DNA from: Thermoanaerobaculia bacterium
GTDB taxonomy: Bacteria > Acidobacteriota > Thermoanaerobaculia > Multivoradales > JAGPDF01
Reading direction: 5' to 3'
DNA: 55,260 nt
Assembly (NCBI GenBank): GCA_018057705.1
Contig: JAGPDF010000028.1
Location: 1-55,260, forward strand
Below, in pieces: positions 541-9,726 of this stretch. A program made the translations under genes and the position numbers. How positions within the stretch are numbered: position 1 is the first letter of the stretch; every line of letters starts with the position of its first letter. The notes under the pieces are model-generated. The model saw only the letters and a program-made list of their open reading frames with translations. It searched no databases and was not told the DNA's origin.

Positions 541-822
541 TCTTCCAGCTTCCGCAAGGCTGTCGACTTCAGCCGCCAGCAAGCCAATCCAAGGCCCACC
601 GCTCACCCACCAGTCCCAGGAGTCGGGTTACATGCAGGGATGGCACCCGTCGAAGTCCGCAGTGGCGAGCGTCGGCAGGACGCCGGCGACATGGCCAGCT
701 CCTGCGACAAGGCGGTCGTAAGACAGGAGCGCGATCGATGCAAAATTTTGGGCATGCAGCCTCTGGGAGCGCTCTGCCGAAGTCTGGGCGGTGAGGCGGC
801 GGATGTACCATCAGCTTGGCAA
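541..822. other. Intergenic stretch without a supported gene
   Basis: Short open frames exist on both strands but have no ribosome binding site, no recognisable domain and frame usage typical of shadows. The only notable element is a perfect 10-bp palindrome CAAAATTTTG at 741-750, an AT-rich island in a GC-rich background. I cannot assign it. Confidence 0.5.
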
Positions 823-855
823 GCATCAACGCATCACGGGTTGACATCATGATGC
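823..855. promoter_or_regulatory. Probable VapB operator: repeated GCATCA/TGATGC half-sites
   Basis: Two direct half-sites GCATCA (823-828 and 831-836) are followed by the palindrome CATCATGATG (845-854), whose right arm reads TGATGC (850-855). The cluster overlaps the -35 box and spacer of the vapBC promoter. Ribbon-helix-helix antitoxins typically bind short repeated half-sites like these and repress their own promoter. The half-sites are seen directly; the binding is inferred. Confidence 0.55.
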
Positions 856-869
856 GAAGTCGTTACATT
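841..869 (+). promoter_or_regulatory. vapBC promoter, sigma-70 type
   Basis: A perfect TTGACA (841-846), a 17-bp spacer and TACATT (864-869). The ATG of vapB is at 876, only six bases after the -10 box, so transcription would begin at or next to the start codon and the mRNA would be leaderless. No Shine-Dalgarno sequence precedes the ATG, which agrees with this. Confidence 0.7.
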
Positions 870-875
870 CGCTCC

Positions 876-1133
876 ATGAGAACCACCATCAACCTTCCGG
901 AGTCGGCTCTCGAGTTGGCGAAACGCAAGGCCGCCGAGGAGGATGCCTCGTTGGGAGAGGTGATTGCCGAGGCGATCTACTCGACCTACCTGGCTCGCCC
1001 CGCCTCCCATGGCGAGGCAGTGGTCGGCATCGGTCGCGACCTGCCGGTGTCGGAACTCGGGGGCGGGCTTCTGCCTGGCGTGCGGCTGGAGAACAACGCC
1101 GAGCTCGAAGACGTGATGAACGGTCTGCGGTGA
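876..1133 (+). CDS. VapB-type antitoxin, ribbon-helix-helix
   Basis: An 85-residue antitoxin of a type II toxin-antitoxin pair. The N-terminus MRTTINLPESALELAKRKA is a ribbon-helix-helix DNA-binding strand and helix; the acidic C-terminal half would bind and block the toxin. An in-frame ATG at 816 exists, but the promoter lies between 816 and 876, so the start at 876 is preferred. It overlaps vapC by four bases (GTGA, 1130-1133), the usual translational coupling in these operons. It probably autoregulates through the half-sites at 823-855. Confidence 0.8.
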   Translation: MRTTINLPESALELAKRKAAEEDASLGEVIAEAIYSTYLARPASHGEAVVGIGRDLPVSELGGGLLPGVRLENNAELEDVMNGLR

Positions 1134-1585
1134 TCCTCCCCGACGTCAACGTACTCGTCGGCGCCTATCGCAGCGACGCCGAGCGGCATGACGAGTATCG
1201 GGAGTGGCTCTTCGCCGAGACTCGTTCCGGCGCCGCATTCGGAATCTCGGAGCCCGTCCTCGTGGGATTTCTGAGAGTCGTTACCCACCCGCGTGTCTTC
1301 GCACGACCGTCGCCGCTCGTCGCGGCGATGCAGTTCGCGGACGCGCTGCTCGCGCTGCCCGGCTGCCGCCTCCTGCGCGCCGGCCCGCGGTACTGGGAGA
1401 TCCTGCGCCAGACCTGCGCCCACGCGGACGCCCGCGGCAATCTCGTTTCAGATGCCGCTCACGCGGCGCTGGCGCTCGAGCACGACTGTGTCTGGATCAC
1501 CGCCGATCGAGACTTCGCGCGTTTTCCCGGACTGCGCTGGCGCCATCCTCTCGACGATCGGGCGACGCGCGAGAATCCTCGCTAG
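1130..1585 (+). CDS. VapC-type PIN-domain ribonuclease toxin
   Basis: A 151-residue PIN-domain protein that would cleave RNA when not bound by its antitoxin. The acidic metal-binding residues are all present: D5 in 'ILPDVNVLV', E41 in 'ISEPV', D108 in 'LVSDAAHA', and D126/D128 in 'TADRDF'. The length is normal for VapC. It starts with GTG inside the vapB stop codon. Its TAG stop (1583-1585) shares the CTAG palindrome with the stop of the convergent thioredoxin gene. Known VapC targets include tRNA and rRNA; the target here cannot be read from sequence. Confidence 0.85.
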   Translation: MILPDVNVLVGAYRSDAERHDEYREWLFAETRSGAAFGISEPVLVGFLRVVTHPRVFARPSPLVAAMQFADALLALPGCRLLRAGPRYWEILRQTCAHADARGNLVSDAAHAALALEHDCVWITADRDFARFPGLRWRHPLDDRATRENPR

Positions 1586-2648: not shown

Positions 2649-4217
2649 ATGGCCGCTCGCCCTCCGCGCCCCTCGCGCCCTCAGCGCCTTCCGATCGCTC
2701 CGCTGCTCCCGCTGGCGCAGGTCGACCCGCTGGCCCCACTGGATCCAATGGCCGCGCTGGCTGCGGTGTTCCGGCCGGCGGCTTCCGGCGCGGCACCGGC
2801 GGGAACGAACGGCGGGCGCAAGGCGGCGGCGGAGTGGCGGCGTTTCTACGCCCATCCGTCGGTGCGGCGCCGCCACCAGGAGTATCTCGGCGGACGTAGC
2901 CTCGAGACGTCACCGACGGCCTATCTGACTTCGCCCTCTCCGACGCCCGATCCCCCGGCGCGCTTTCGTCCGGTGACCGACCTGCCGGTGATGCTCTCGA
3001 GCGAGCTCGAGGTTGCGCGCTCGCTCTGGGACAAGAACTCCCTCCTCGTCCACCTCGACATCGAGCACGTGCACTTCGACGCGCCCTGGGAGCCGCTGAT
3101 CTATCCCAAGCGCAGCCTCTTCGTGCAGAGGGACGTCGTCGCCGCGATCTCCGCCCTGCTCGCCGAATTCGGGATCGAGGCGCTCCACCTGCTCACCGGG
3201 CGCGGCCATCACTTCGTCTGGAAGATCGGGCGGCGTTCGGCGGCGTTCGCGGCTCTGGTGCGTCTCGCAACGCTCAGCGAGGCTCAGAGAACCGCCTATG
3301 GCACGCGACGGCCTTTCGCCGGAAAGGCCGTTGGCGCGCCCGCGGGCGCGGCATGGAACGGCCTCGGCAAGGTGATGGAGTACCTCGGCCATCGCATCCT
3401 CGCGGCGAGTGGCCCGTCTCCGGTGCCGGTGCAATTCACCGCGGTCGTGGTCGGCCCCGGTGCGCACGGCCGCGAGATCGTCGCCATCGACCTTTCGGAG
3501 TACGCCGATCCGCTGCACAAGCGGGCGGTTCGCATGCCGTTCACCGCCTATCTCAAGGCGGAGCGGCGCGGCTGGATTCCGCCCCCACCGGCGGCGCTGC
3601 CCCGACTCGTCGCCATTCCCGATTCGGGGGACGAGGACGAGGGCATCCGGATCATGCGCGATCCCGATCTCGCGGCGGCGTTCGCGCGACGCACCCACAC
3701 GACGATTCCCGATGCGTCGCTCGCCATGGCGGGCCTGATCGCGGCTTACGAGAGCAGTGAGCTGGCGGACTTCCATCGCCGGTTCTATGCCCAGGAGCCC
3801 GACCCTCCGGAGCTCTGGACGAACACCTACGACCGGATCGACCTCGGCGCCCTGCCCGCCTGCGTCGCTCGCATCCTCGGGCATCCGAACGACCTGCTCC
3901 TGCAGCCGGGCGGGATTCAGCTCGTGGTGCGGACCCTGCTCGCGCAGGGCTGGCATCCGCGGCACATCGCCGGCCTCATCCGGTCGAAGTACGAACGCCC
4001 CTTCGGCTGGCTGGCGGACTTCCATTTTCATGATGCGGCGATGCGGGCCGAGATCTACACCCGGTTCTTTGCCGGGCTGATCGCGGTCGGCAACGACCAG
4101 ATGGTCGACTTCAACTGCACCTCGACGCAGGAGAAGCTCCTCTGCCCAGGAACCGGCTGCCCGTGGAACCTGGAGGCTCTGCGGACCGCCGCGCAGAGCG
4201 GTGGTGGACACGCCTGA
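2649..4217 (+). CDS. Fused PriS-like/PriL-like primase (archaeo-eukaryotic primase superfamily)
   Basis: A 522-residue protein with two recognisable parts. The N-terminal part (about 60-310) has the AEP signatures in order: a strand with acidic pair D137/E139 in 'LLVHLDIEHVHFD'; 'LLTGRGHHFVWKI' (181-193), matching the S/T-x-H motif II; 'EIVAIDLS' with D281 as motif III; then 'RAVRMPFTAYLK' (292-303), like the RxPxSxHxK strand. The C-terminal part (about 395-515) resembles the PriL iron-sulfur domain: 'LPACVARIL' with C405, a helical stretch 'VVRTLLAQGWHPRHIAGLI', then C490, C499 and C504 in 'FNC...LCPGTGCPWN'. The four cysteines fit the 4Fe-4S ligands of PriL. The likely activity is primer or short DNA synthesis. 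ATG 2649 lies six bases after a TACCTT box, so it may be leaderless. It is coupled to the next gene (TGAGATG). Confidence 0.7.
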   Translation: MAARPPRPSRPQRLPIAPLLPLAQVDPLAPLDPMAALAAVFRPAASGAAPAGTNGGRKAAAEWRRFYAHPSVRRRHQEYLGGRSLETSPTAYLTSPSPTPDPPARFRPVTDLPVMLSSELEVARSLWDKNSLLVHLDIEHVHFDAPWEPLIYPKRSLFVQRDVVAAISALLAEFGIEALHLLTGRGHHFVWKIGRRSAAFAALVRLATLSEAQRTAYGTRRPFAGKAVGAPAGAAWNGLGKVMEYLGHRILAASGPSPVPVQFTAVVVGPGAHGREIVAIDLSEYADPLHKRAVRMPFTAYLKAERRGWIPPPPAALPRLVAIPDSGDEDEGIRIMRDPDLAAAFARRTHTTIPDASLAMAGLIAAYESSELADFHRRFYAQEPDPPELWTNTYDRIDLGALPACVARILGHPNDLLLQPGGIQLVVRTLLAQGWHPRHIAGLIRSKYERPFGWLADFHFHDAAMRAEIYTRFFAGLIAVGNDQMVDFNCTSTQEKLLCPGTGCPWNLEALRTAAQSGGGHA

Positions 4218-4218
4218 G

Positions 4219-5103
4219 ATGGCCGGGATGGCCGAAACGGCCGAGAGGCCGGTGCTCGCCGCGGCGGCCGGAGAGCTCGCGATCGGATTCTCGACCGGTT
4301 CGTTCTGGCGGACCCGCCTGATCGACTGTCTGGAGCCGATTCGCAAGGCCGGCTTCGGCCAGATCGAGGTCTCGTCGTCGCCCACGCATCTCGACTACCA
4401 CGATCCGGCGGCTTGCCTCGCCGCAGCGGCGAGGATCCGCGCGCTGGGGCTCGAAGTGCACTCCTTCCAGGCTCCGTTCGCCGACCGGATCGACATCTCG
4501 GCCCTCGACGCCCGCGTGCGGGACGCCGCCGTCGACGAGATCTCCCGCGCCGCCGAGGCGGCGGCCACGATCGGGGCGCGCTTCTTCGTCCTGCATCCCG
4601 GACCCGAGACGACCGGCGTGCCGCGCGAGCAGCGCCTCGACCGCATGGACTGCGCCGTCGAAGCGCTCGATCGCATCGCCTGGCGCGCCGGTGAGCTCGG
4701 GGTGCGGCTGGTGCTCGAGAACATGCTGCCGCATCTGTTCGCCGGCCATGTACGCGACCTTCTCTGGTTGCTCGGCGCTCTCGCCTCGAGCAACGTCGGC
4801 ATCTGCCTCGACACAGGCCACGCCTACCTCTCCGGCGACCTGAGCCATGTCGCCCACAAGCTCTCCGGGCATCTCTGGATGGTGCACGCGAGCGACAACC
4901 ACGGCGAGTGCGACGACCATCTCGCGCCGGGGGAAGGCGGCATCGCCTGGCCCGAGCTGCTGCGCCAGCTCACCGCGGAGCACTTTTCGGGCGCTTTCGT
5001 TCTGGAGCTCGCGCCGGAGGACGACACGGCTCGATTGCTGCGCCGGGCGCGCGTGTCGGCCGATCTGCTGCGCCGCCTGCATCGCGAGCGTGCCGCCGCC
5101 TGA
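4219..5103 (+). CDS. Xylose isomerase/endonuclease IV-fold TIM-barrel protein
   Basis: A TIM barrel of 294 residues (300 if started at GTG 4201). Numbered from GTG 4201, it contains H87 ('EVHSFQ'), H132 ('FFVLHPG'), E173 ('LVLENM'), D204 and H207 ('CLDTGHAYL'), H229 ('MVHASD'), D238 and H240 ('CDDHL') and E269 ('FVLEL'). These match in order the nine metal ligands of the trinuclear zinc site of endonuclease IV. Sugar-phosphate isomerases of the same superfamily (COG1082) share several of them, so the substrate is open: an abasic-site nuclease or a sugar isomerase/epimerase. ATG 4219 directly follows the primase stop (TGA 4215-4217), which suggests coupled translation and favours a nucleic-acid role. 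Confidence 0.65.
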   Translation: MAGMAETAERPVLAAAAGELAIGFSTGSFWRTRLIDCLEPIRKAGFGQIEVSSSPTHLDYHDPAACLAAAARIRALGLEVHSFQAPFADRIDISALDARVRDAAVDEISRAAEAAATIGARFFVLHPGPETTGVPREQRLDRMDCAVEALDRIAWRAGELGVRLVLENMLPHLFAGHVRDLLWLLGALASSNVGICLDTGHAYLSGDLSHVAHKLSGHLWMVHASDNHGECDDHLAPGEGGIAWPELLRQLTAEHFSGAFVLELAPEDDTARLLRRARVSADLLRRLHRERAAA

Positions 5104-5833: not shown

Positions 5834-7708
5834 CTAGTGGGGAAGGGGCGACGGCCGCGGTTGTGCCAGCGCGGCGCGAAGCTCGGCGATGCGGTCGGCG
5901 GCGCGCGGCCGGCTGCCGCTCGCCAGATGCCGGGGGTTGATCTCCTGCGAGCGCTCGAAAGCGGCGAGCGCTTCCGGCAGGCGGCCGGCCCGCGAGTGGA
6001 TCAGGCCGAGGTTGTAGAACAGCACATCGTTGTCCGGTGCCGCTTCTGCAGCGAGGCGGAATTCCCGTGCCGACCTTTCCGGATCCCGGAGCTCGGCGGT
6101 GAGGCCGCGCATGTAGTGGAACTCGCCGATGAGATTTCTCGTCAGGTAGTCCTTGGGAACCCGCGGATCGCTCTCGCCCGCGAGCTCGTCGGCGTCGGCG
6201 ATGGCGGCGATGTCGGAGCCAGCGGCGAACTCGTTCGGGCGATCTCCGGGTGCGCCGCGCCGCGCGACGCGGAAGAGAAGCCCTTCGGGGAGGATCTCGA
6301 GCGGGGGCAGGTTCCAGTTGGGATGGTGGGTAAAGTAGAGCCGGCTCCGGTCGGGGTCGAAGCGCAGCGGTGGACGCGGCGTCTCGTCGGCCCCCTGGAC
6401 TCCCTGGGCGACGAGGTCGACGTCGGGCCGCAGCCCCACGACGTGGCGCAGGTAGAGCAGCACGAACAGGATGTTGTCGTCGCTCGCCACCAGATGCGCG
6501 CCGGGGGGGAGCTGCGCGAGGAGCCTCCGGCTGTAGTCCTCGGCGATGCGGTAGCGGCTGCGGTCGAAGGCGTTCCAACCGGTGATGAGGCCGAGCGCCG
6601 GCAGGGCGAGGAGCAGCCAGGCGAGCCGCCGCGGGAGCCGCGCGGCCAGCGCCTGGGCGCCGAAGCCGGCGAGGAGTGCCCCGCAGAGGTAGGCCGGGAT
6701 GTAGTACCGGTGCCAGATGAAGAGATCGCTCCTCGAGCCGTGCAGTCCCATAGCGACGAGATTGCCGAGAATGCAGAGCAGGAGGATCGCGGGCGCGAAG
6801 CGTCGCCGGCCACTCGCGAGCAGAACGAGGGTGCCGAGCAGTGCGAGGAAGGCGCCGCCGGCAGTGAGCTCGGCGCCGAAGCTCGCCACGAAGTCGCTGG
6901 CGATCGCAGCCCAGTCGCGGGCGCTCTCGAGCCAGCGCCTCTCCCAGAAGCCGCGCCGGGTGACGACGGCGAGAAGGCGGTCGAGCGTCTCGGGGTCCCC
7001 CCAGTCGAGCGCCGGGTCGCTGCGCGAACGCCACGGCAGAAAGAGGTAAGGGAGGAGGCCGGCCGAGAAGGCGGCCGCAGCGACGCCGAGCTCGCGCCAG
7101 CGCAGCAGGAGGCGCGGCTCGACGAGGCTCGCGGCGCCGGCGAAGGCGGCGGCTGCGACCAGCATGAAGGTGTGGTTGGTGGCTCCGAGGCCGCAGAGGA
7201 AGGCGACTGCAGCCAGCCGGCGCGGCGTCCGGTCACCCTCCCAGGCGAACGCCGCGAGGAGCGCCGCCACAAGACAGAGCGCGCCGAGGGCGTAGACCCG
7301 CTGGATGTTGGCCTCGCCCCAGAAGCTCGGCGCGACGGCGAGGAGGCCGGCGACGAAGAGAGCGACCGGTCGTTCCATTCCCAGGCGACGCGCCAGCCTG
7401 AACAGCAGTCCCAGAGTCGCCGCCGCGCACGCGGCAGAGAAGAGGCTCATGCGGAACGCGATCGAGCCCGCGGGCAGCAACATCGTCCAGAGCTTGCCCA
7501 GGAGAACGTAGAGCGGATAGGCGCTGGGGTGAGGGATGCCGAGGACGTACACCGCCGTCGTGAGCTCGCCGCTGTCGCCGACGTAGATCGTCCTGCAGGC
7601 TCCGGTGGCGTAAATTGCAAATCCGAGACAGGCGAGCGCGACACCGATCCAGCGGTCCACCCTGGCCGCCGCTGCCGTCGTCGCCGGAGCTCCTTCCGTC
7701 GGCTTCAC
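5834..7708 (-). CDS. DUF2723 membrane protein with C-terminal TPR
   Basis: A 624-residue polytopic membrane protein. The first loop has 'VGDSGELTTAVYVLGIPHPSAYPLY' (split here as two parts of the DUF2723 signature: GDSGE and GIPHPSAYPLY), typical of these O-mannosyltransferase-like proteins. About ten hydrophobic helices run to residue 380, followed by a soluble domain with 'SDDNILFVLLYLRHV' and TPR-like helices near 545-600 ('DNDVLFYNLGLIHSRAGRLPE' region). It starts with GTG overlapping the stop of the upstream phosphodiesterase gene by four bases (GTGA). The family is thought to transfer sugars from lipid carriers to proteins or glycans at the outer face of the inner membrane; the substrate is unknown. 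Confidence 0.8.
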   Translation of the reverse strand: MKPTEGAPATTAAAARVDRWIGVALACLGFAIYATGACRTIYVGDSGELTTAVYVLGIPHPSAYPLYVLLGKLWTMLLPAGSIAFRMSLFSAACAAATLGLLFRLARRLGMERPVALFVAGLLAVAPSFWGEANIQRVYALGALCLVAALLAAFAWEGDRTPRRLAAVAFLCGLGATNHTFMLVAAAAFAGAASLVEPRLLLRWRELGVAAAAFSAGLLPYLFLPWRSRSDPALDWGDPETLDRLLAVVTRRGFWERRWLESARDWAAIASDFVASFGAELTAGGAFLALLGTLVLLASGRRRFAPAILLLCILGNLVAMGLHGSRSDLFIWHRYYIPAYLCGALLAGFGAQALAARLPRRLAWLLLALPALGLITGWNAFDRSRYRIAEDYSRRLLAQLPPGAHLVASDDNILFVLLYLRHVVGLRPDVDLVAQGVQGADETPRPPLRFDPDRSRLYFTHHPNWNLPPLEILPEGLLFRVARRGAPGDRPNEFAAGSDIAAIADADELAGESDPRVPKDYLTRNLIGEFHYMRGLTAELRDPERSAREFRLAAEAAPDNDVLFYNLGLIHSRAGRLPEALAAFERSQEINPRHLASGSRPRAADRIAELRAALAQPRPSPLPH

Positions 7709-9726
7709 GGCCCTCCCTGCAGCTGCTTCAGGTTCTGCTGGAAGAGCGCGTTGTCGGGCTCGAGAGCGAGGCAGCGCTCGAGCGCGCGGATGGCGCGCGG
7801 CCGGTCCCCGGCGAGGTAGGCGACGTTCGATTCGTACTGACAGACGATGGCCAGGCGGGGCGCAACGGCACCGGCCTCGGCCAGCTGCGCGAGCGCCTCG
7901 GGATAGGCGCCGCGCCGGGCGGCCGTCGCCGCCGCTTCGGCGAGCGCCAGGGCCCGGGCCTCGGCCGCGTTCGCGGCCACGAACTCACCGGAGCTCCCGG
8001 TCAGTCGCAGCAGTGCCTGTCGGGCCGGTTCGTAGCCCGGCTGGTAGCGCAGCGCCAGCCGGTAGCTCGTGACCGCCTCGCTGGCGCGCCCGAGCCGTTC
8101 GAGGGCCAGTCCCTGGTTGTAGTGCCCCTCGGGGTTGAGCGGCTCGAGCTTCAGGGCCACGGCGAGCTGGACGAGCGCCTCTTCGTAGCGCCCGAGCGCG
8201 CCCAGGGCCCCGGCGAGACTCGTCCGCAGGGAGGAATCTTCGGGATCGCGCTCGACCAGCGCCTGGTACATCCGCGCCGAGCGCTCGAACTGCTTCTCTT
8301 CGAAGGCGATGGCGGCGAGGTTGCGGTCGCTTTCGGGGGAGCTGCCCCCCGCGAGGTAGCCGAGACTCTGCAGGTGCTCGACGAGCGCCTCGTCCACCTT
8401 GCCGTCCCGGGACGGCGCGGCGCCGGTCTCGCCGCCGCCCTTCTGGCCGGCGTTCCCGCCACTGTTCTCGCGCCTGTTTTCGTAGGTCGCTATGCGATCG
8501 AGCTGCGGGAGATCGCGGAAGGCCGCCTGCAGGACCTTGCCGGGCATGTCCGCCGCCGGCGCGAGGCCGCCCAGGGCGAGCACCGTCGGCGCGATGTCGA
8601 GGAGCGTCGCACCGTCGAGCCGCGTTCCGGGCCGCACGCCGGCGCCGTAGAAGAAGAGCACGCCCTCCTCGTCGTGGAACTTCTCGGAGACGCGCCGCAT
8701 GTCGCGCAAGCGGCTCGGATCGTCGGGCAGCGTGCCGAGCTCGAAGCCGTGGTCGGAGAGCACGACGAGTGTCGTTCCTGAGTCGAGTACGGCCAGGAAG
8801 TCGCCCAGAATCCGGTCGGCATACTCGTACACCGCCTCGACGGCGCGGCCATAACGGCGCTGCTGGAGGGCCAACTCACCGGCCAGCCCCTGGGCACGGA
8901 AGAGGTGACCGAAGAGGTGGGACGTCGAATCGGTGCCCTCGAAGTAGGTGAGCATGAGGTGAGGGCGTTCGCTCCGCCAGAGCTCGAGGCCGAGGTCGCG
9001 ATAGGTGCGCATGGTCGCGAGCACCCAGCGGAAGTGCTGCAGATCGTCCCCGAGTGAGAACGGACGGGCGATCTCCTCCGCCGTCACATCGACGAACGGC
9101 GCCAGCTCGGCCGCGCCGATCTGCTGCGGGCGGACGAGTCGGGGCGCCAGCCGGCTTTCGAGCTCGGGAGGCCAGGTCGCGCCCGGACCGCTCTGCTGCT
9201 CGAAACCCTGCGCGAAGAGGAAGTGCCAGGCGAGATGGTCGCTGGCGATGAATCCGTTGACCTTCTCCGGCGGCCAGGTCGCCCACCACCCGAGAGTGCC
9301 GACACGCTTGCCGGCGTCGGAGAAGAGGTTCCAGAGAGCCTTGACGCGCCGCATCTCGCTCGTCACCGGAGCCGTGCGCTCGCTGCCGGCCTCGTGCACG
9401 ACGAAGTGGCCGATGCCGTGCTGGTCCGGGGTCTTGCCCGTGGCGATCGTCGTCCAGAGGATGGGCGAGAGCATCGGCTGGAAGCTCTTGAGCCGCCCGT
9501 AGGCGCCGCCCCGGCGCAGCTTCGCGAAGTTTGGGAGCTTGCCCTCCGCGAGCATCAGGTCGACCGTGTCGGGGTCGAGTCCGTCGAAGCCGAGGACGAG
9601 CACCCGGCGCTCGCTCGGAGCACACGACGAGAGGGCGAGGGCGGCCAGGAGCGCCGGCGCGACGAGCGCGCCGACGACTCGGCGCCGGAAGCGAACCGCA
9701 AGGGAGAGGCAGGGAACGGGGCGCAT
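7705..9726 (-). CDS. Phosphodiesterase/nucleotide pyrophosphatase-like lipoprotein with TPR tail
   Basis: A 673-residue lipoprotein (lipobox 'LALSSC', C35). Residues 40-430 form an alkaline-phosphatase-superfamily domain of the type I phosphodiesterase kind: 'LVLGFDGLDPDT' with metal ligand D48, 'SPILWTTIATGKTPDQHGI' with a probable Thr nucleophile (T92), then 'GTDSTSHLFGH' and 'LSDHGFE'. After a conserved linker 'LQSLGYLAGG' come TPR repeats to the C-terminus. The same architecture appears in the gene at 17708. The enzyme would hydrolyse phosphodiesters outside the inner membrane; the TPRs suggest a protein partner. It is the first gene of an operon with the DUF2723 gene, which suggests a role in surface-glycan modification (inference). 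Confidence 0.8.
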   Translation of the reverse strand: MRPVPCLSLAVRFRRRVVGALVAPALLAALALSSCAPSERRVLVLGFDGLDPDTVDLMLAEGKLPNFAKLRRGGAYGRLKSFQPMLSPILWTTIATGKTPDQHGIGHFVVHEAGSERTAPVTSEMRRVKALWNLFSDAGKRVGTLGWWATWPPEKVNGFIASDHLAWHFLFAQGFEQQSGPGATWPPELESRLAPRLVRPQQIGAAELAPFVDVTAEEIARPFSLGDDLQHFRWVLATMRTYRDLGLELWRSERPHLMLTYFEGTDSTSHLFGHLFRAQGLAGELALQQRRYGRAVEAVYEYADRILGDFLAVLDSGTTLVVLSDHGFELGTLPDDPSRLRDMRRVSEKFHDEEGVLFFYGAGVRPGTRLDGATLLDIAPTVLALGGLAPAADMPGKVLQAAFRDLPQLDRIATYENRRENSGGNAGQKGGGETGAAPSRDGKVDEALVEHLQSLGYLAGGSSPESDRNLAAIAFEEKQFERSARMYQALVERDPEDSSLRTSLAGALGALGRYEEALVQLAVALKLEPLNPEGHYNQGLALERLGRASEAVTSYRLALRYQPGYEPARQALLRLTGSSGEFVAANAAEARALALAEAAATAARRGAYPEALAQLAEAGAVAPRLAIVCQYESNVAYLAGDRPRAIRALERCLALEPDNALFQQNLKQLQGGP

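Follow-up and report, generated by a model that had tools for sequence, protein, structure and literature searches.

Published bacterial members of the archaeo-eukaryotic primase (AEP) group are mostly parts of mobile elements, families of which are covered by an AEP survey (PMC5862659), or enzymes of LigC/LigD repair. Mycobacterial Prim-PolC fills short 5'-phosphorylated gaps after the excision of damaged bases; together with endonuclease IV (EndoIV) and LigC1 it rebuilds excision repair in vitro, with EndoIV as the best end-processor, and mycobacteria express the LigC complex as they enter stationary phase (PMC5663958). The polymerase domain of LigD is likewise a repair polymerase, acting in NHEJ. 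PolpTN2, encoded by plasmid pTN2, is a PriS-PriL fusion in which R231, the Arg of its motif IV (RAPLTFNHK), is essential (PMC5862659). A literature search returned no paper joining archaeo-eukaryotic primase with Acidobacteri*.

The protein described here belongs to a chromosomal AEP family lying outside both of the published groups and, in two phyla, tightly coupled to an EndoIV-like partner. It is encoded in the window, which is the whole analysed stretch of 55,260 nucleotides from a Thermoanaerobaculia bacterium, and the features discussed below are as follows.

2649..4217, plus strand: putative primase-polymerase gene, 522 aa, comprising an AEP catalytic domain and a four-cysteine helical C-terminal domain (open frame, family alignments)
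2652..2813, plus strand: residues 2-55, a Pro/Ala-rich insertion of 54 residues, predicted to be disordered (missing in the closest relative, L002; pLDDT <50)
2835..3701, plus strand: predicted AEP catalytic domain, about residues 63-351 (VIA-align Z 10.4 to Prim-PolC, 9.8 to LigD-Pol, 7.7 to CAPP)
3057..3065, plus strand: motif I, D137-I-E139
3195..3212, plus strand: motif II, TGRGHH, residues 183-188
3489..3491, plus strand: motif III, D281
3531..3557, plus strand: motif IV-like RMPFTAYLK, residues 295-303
3702..4214, plus strand: predicted helical C-terminal domain, residues 352-522, with C405, C490, C499 and C504 (AlphaFold2, cysteine alignment)
4201..5103, plus strand: EndoIV-like TIM-barrel partner gene, PF01261 AP_endonuc_2 (Pfam E 5e-39; conserved neighbour)

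The protein resembles Prim-PolC in its predicted AEP fold and chromosomal location, and Prim-PolC works with endonuclease IV in the rebuilt reaction (PMC5663958). However, the two share only about 10% identity, and the four-cysteine domain is missing from Prim-PolC, whose gene is accompanied by that of a ligase, whereas the operon partner of the window family is an EndoIV-like gene with no ligase adjoining. The LigD polymerase domain is similar in its AEP fold, but the window family has no adjoining ligase, phosphoesterase or Ku. A fused or adjacent ATP-dependent ligase, which marks the LigC/LigD repair polymerases, is absent from the conserved neighbours, and the family was not placed among them. 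PolpTN2 shares the succession of an AEP domain and a helical domain, four cysteines in similar order and a motif IV resembling RMPFTAYLK; unlike PolpTN2, the window protein is about half as long, chromosomal and without detectable sequence kinship to it. Assignment to the PolpTN2-like group (PrimPol-PV1) was rejected, since the motif II histidine, which is Gln in PolpTN2-like proteins, is kept as H188 in 23 of the 24 aligned family members, and no association with mobile elements, as in the PrimPol-PV1 supergroup, was seen in the relatives and neighbours inspected. The replicative primase PriS/PriL offers a comparable PriS fold and cysteine count, but the window protein is a single bacterial chain in which kinship to PriL was not detected.

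The primase family and its catalytic domain

The earlier note had read this frame as a primase, and the open frame and the residues that it named are real: D137, E139, TGRGHH (183-188), D281, RMPFTAYLK (295-303), C405, C490, C499 and C504 all lie at the positions it gave. A long minus-strand shadow frame (2910-4385) was ruled out as the coding sequence, as conservation lies in the plus frame. The upstream DNA adjoining the ATG at 2649 (CGGCAGTACCTTGA..GCATG) is common to the window and its closest relative, which makes this codon a plausible start of the gene. A promoter and terminator scan around the operon of the primase and TIM-barrel genes found nothing.

The systematic search for homologues covered two phyla, Acidobacteriota and Verrucomicrobiota. 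Thermoanaerobaculia contributed homologues of 78%, about 50% and 33% identity and Verrucomicrobiota homologues of about 40%; others come from elsewhere in Acidobacteriota. Carriers number 5 of the 149 genomes of class Thermoanaerobaculia, 5 of 396 in the Acidobacteriota phylum sample and 11 of 388 in the Verrucomicrobiota sample, three of the last being very weak or divergent; the distribution is patchy, at about 1-3% of genomes per group. The survey of Acidobacteriota homologues suggested in the earlier note thus brought out a conserved primase family that reaches into Verrucomicrobiota too and is unnamed in Pfam, NCBIfam, PADLOC and PHROG, none of which holds an acceptable model for the protein. 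A PDB sequence search returned chance matches only, and no plasmid, phage or IMG/VR-contig relatives of the primase were found. No mobile-element genes adjoin the primase gene, in agreement with the earlier reading of its surroundings. No replicative PriS or PriL was identified in the window's genome by Pfam match. In one genome (G770; L055 / L122) the primase is frameshifted before the C-terminal cysteines, an assembly error or a pseudogene, and another (G570) has the gene pair twice (G570:C16 and G570:C8; L048, L049).

The motifs that define AEPs, namely I (hhhDhD/E), II (GxGxH type) and III (hD), occur in order across the 24 aligned family members, as D137/E139, TGRGHH and D281 in the window protein. 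Position 137 is D in 23 of the 24 and position 139 is E in 21 and D in the rest; H188 is nearly as constant, and G186, D281, R292 and R295 are invariant. The motif IV-like RxPFTxYxK varies hardly more. The AlphaFold2 model of the whole protein (pLDDT 71, pTM 0.77) found its best solved match in mycobacterial Prim-PolC (245 residues aligned, rmsd 6.5), followed by LigD-Pol, CAPP and PriS (Z about 6-7), with human PrimPol also among the matches. The best 34 structural-alignment rows are nearly all AEPs, Prim-PolC and LigD-Pol standing well above the unrelated rows. Foldseek by itself gave an E of 0.1 only and identity to the fold matches is about 10%; the assignment to the AEP fold is therefore based on the motifs in combination with the consistency of the AEP matches. 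On these grounds an AEP fold is supported for the predicted catalytic domain, as the earlier note had proposed in calling it PriS-like.

The four-cysteine C-terminal domain

Modelled alone, the C-terminal domain gave a confident, helical AlphaFold2 prediction (pLDDT 87.5, pTM 0.84). All four cysteines are kept in 19 of the 21 intact family members, the fourth lying 4-10 residues past the third; all four are lost in L054 and two in L043, and the cysteine region is missing from the highly divergent homologues, of which L056 has one and L057 two. Both L057 homologues (6148-7512 and 7843-9156) are AEP relatives; they lie in inverted orientation and lack an adjoining EndoIV-like gene. The domain probably holds a metal or an Fe-S cluster.

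The cysteines are spaced X84, X8, X4 in the window protein, against X89, X5, X8 in PolpTN2 and X79, X16, X39 in human PriL, and in order and spacing they are nearer PolpTN2 than human PriL. The spacing had been described in the earlier note as that of PriL, which holds loosely, the exact values differing from those of both proteins. Its PriL-like C-terminus survives as a conserved four-cysteine domain, but the kinship with PriL does not emerge from the comparisons: with single-sequence targets, hhalign stayed <2% and hmmsearch at shuffle level against human PriL-CTD (a query letter-for-letter identical to the PDB chains), PolpTN2 and pRN1. The domain-only model matched no AEP or PriL chain in the PDB, an absent match that is not evidence for a different fold. 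Weak matches to helical domains were obtained with the whole chain (pRN1, Z 3.9; ASFV PrimPol, Z 3.1), and the BFVD search of viral structures gave nothing useful. PriCT, PriX and PriL-CTD are described as related (PMC5862659), and in Sulfolobus priming does not require the Fe-S cluster (PMC5700102), so that cysteine loss in some family members would be unsurprising. The PriL-like identity of the domain is at present a fair lead rather than a result.

The EndoIV-like partner gene and its neighbourhood

The TIM-barrel gene lies directly downstream of the primase gene in the window, on the same strand and with a 17-base overlap. An all-versus-all comparison of the open reading frames around 26 loci identified it as the sole conserved neighbour, adjoining the primase gene in 22 of the 26, fragments counted. 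The TIM barrel does not adjoin the primase gene where the contig ends (L042), where the assembly is split and its other half has the gene (L046/L047), and in the divergent L056 and L057. The two genes share a strand in the 18 tabulated loci, with gaps of -59 to +5 bases and, in ten loci, a 4-base overlap, an arrangement typical of coupled translation. Primase and TIM-barrel distances in these 18 loci are correlated in a mirror-tree comparison (r 0.87, a value reached by 0 of 2000 permutations); the divergence of one gene parallels that of the other. No ligase was found among the conserved neighbours or in the operon, and the primase gene is not accompanied by a helicase or SSB gene, in the loci compared.

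A search of 526 genomes with a profile of the partner showed matches above 390 bits to lie always beside a primase gene; only one further match exceeds 250 bits, a truncated remnant in G025 at a locus from which the primase is gone. This decayed locus (L116; G025:C41:203500-214500) has Hsp20 and CBS genes beside it and a helix-hairpin-helix gene near. TIM barrels of about 210 bits from small Verrucomicrobiota genomes were rejected as members of the pair, as they adjoin metabolic genes and no primase.

The partner shares with endonuclease IV (Nfo) and MJ1311 the PF01261 TIM barrel, and the nine EndoIV metal-ligand positions align in its family, eight of them being invariant and the full nine present in 17 of 18 members. 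Q90 of the window copy (4468-4470) stands at the first ligand position, where all relatives covering it have H; this may be either a real change or a sequencing error. Unlike Nfo, however, the partner forms a subfamily of its own tied to the primase gene, and it lies far below the Nfo cut-off, with 29.6 bits against 129.65 for the EndoIV model TIGR00587. It falls below every curated cut-off, its scores for CbiR, epimerases and EndoIV being nearly tied, and its nearest solved structure, nearer than EndoIV, is the uncharacterised MJ1311 (3wqo). A comparison of the family profile with the true nfo of four carrier genomes gave 98.7% (E 4e-16). Of the 18 carrier genomes searched, only four, among them that of the window, yielded an Nfo above its cut-off; Ku was found in 10 and not in the other 8.

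General-stress genes (Usp, CBS, Hsp20, OsmC) surround some of the loci; directly upstream of the primase gene stands OsmC in L044, L045 and L047 and Hsp20 in L054, and at times CBS or Usp takes that place. DJ-1/PfpI with topoisomerase IB and CsbD with DUF892 were each seen singly. Usp, Hsp20, OsmC or CBS genes occur in 9 of 24 pair windows and in 4 of 40 control windows drawn from the carrier genomes (Fisher p 0.011; p 0.002 in a reduced set), for families picked post hoc and with profiles seeded from the test windows. The copy of the pair in L049 is followed by the DJ-1/PfpI and topoisomerase IB genes, and in L042 (12578-14446) the primase carries a fused N-terminal CBS-domain pair within one open frame. 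Upstream of the pair in the window lie genes for a VapC-like PIN protein and a thioredoxin-like protein, and stress genes are missing from the near vicinity. At 816-1585 (plus strand) a small open reading frame is followed by a PIN-domain gene (PF01850), with the look of a VapBC toxin-antitoxin pair and syntenic with L002.

Probable function of the pair and its significance

By analogy with the mycobacterial reaction, the two-gene operon may encode an excision/gap-repair pair of stress or stationary phase, a reading to which we give roughly even confidence. The EndoIV-like protein, as a metallo-phosphodiesterase, would most likely cut abasic sites or clean blocked 3' ends, leaving a 3'-OH that the AEP polymerase, possibly in contact with it, would extend. 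The primase-polymerase would most likely fill short gaps, or lay a short primer, in chromosomal DNA, with the helical four-cysteine domain helping to bind the template or the starting nucleotide, and the nick would be closed by a ligase whose gene lies elsewhere. The pair probably works in stress or stationary phase, because several loci carry stress genes beside it. We are somewhat more reserved, and short of even confidence, about the fuller proposal of a new AEP family with a metal or Fe-S domain and an obligate EndoIV-like subfamily, together forming an undescribed repair module of stress or stationary phase without LigC/LigD.

The earlier note had suggested a role in repair or in replication restart. 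Repair is the better supported of the two because of the EndoIV-like partner gene downstream, and the best fold matches, Prim-PolC and LigD-Pol, are gap-filling repair polymerases. Counting against repair of the EndoIV type are the presence of a true nfo in the window's genome as well, the distance of the TIM barrel from the EndoIV cut-off, Q90 in the window copy and the absence of a ligase from the operon; the cysteines, moreover, are not universal and the window locus is without nearby stress genes. Restart is retained as a repriming enzyme of the human PrimPol/CAPP type, with the AEP priming past stalled forks and the EndoIV-like partner processing the damage. The ability to start chains is usually ascribed to AEPs that are coupled with a PriL-like or PriCT domain (PMC5862659, PMC5700102), the fold matches include CAPP and human PrimPol, and the C-terminus weakly matches the helical domains of pRN1 and ASFV PrimPol, but the nearest folds are those of gap-filling enzymes and not of primases, no helicase or SSB gene is among the travelling neighbours and the PriL/PriCT kinship of the C-terminal domain is unproven, so that repriming appears unlikely.

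A mobile or defence module, in which an AEP and a nuclease-like partner are passed among bacteria and act on foreign DNA, would fit the very patchy distribution, the strict gene pairing and the two copies in G570. This is distinctly improbable, however, given that PADLOC match and plasmid, phage or viral-contig relatives are all lacking, that stress genes rather than recombinases or defence genes were seen at the loci inspected and that the primase and TIM-barrel genes diverge in parallel. The TIM barrel might instead be a small-molecule enzyme, a sugar/nucleotide epimerase or a CbiR-like phosphodiesterase, the pair handling a nucleotide signal or an unusual nucleotide and not repair. Its scores are evenly spread over CbiR, epimerases and EndoIV, and the neighbouring CBS (fused to the primase in L042) and Usp belong to families that often bind adenine nucleotides. 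Against this, the extra EndoIV metal-site residues (HPG His, DxxH, H..D.H), which ordinary epimerases are not known to have, are invariant in the TIM barrel, and its operon mate has the fold of a templated polymerase; we regard the small-molecule function as about as improbable as a mobile or defence module.

As AEP repair polymerases are already known, the new point would be the pairing of such a protein with an EndoIV-like enzyme. The occurrence of an unnamed AEP family nearly always first in an operon with a repair-like enzyme suggests an undescribed DNA-repair module. If this is true, the two genes would constitute a self-contained cut-and-fill pair, already arranged as one natural operon, and would provide a test case for a cysteine-rich domain in repair synthesis rather than in replication priming, as well as a function for a branch of the TIM-barrel superfamily that is unnamed in the databases.
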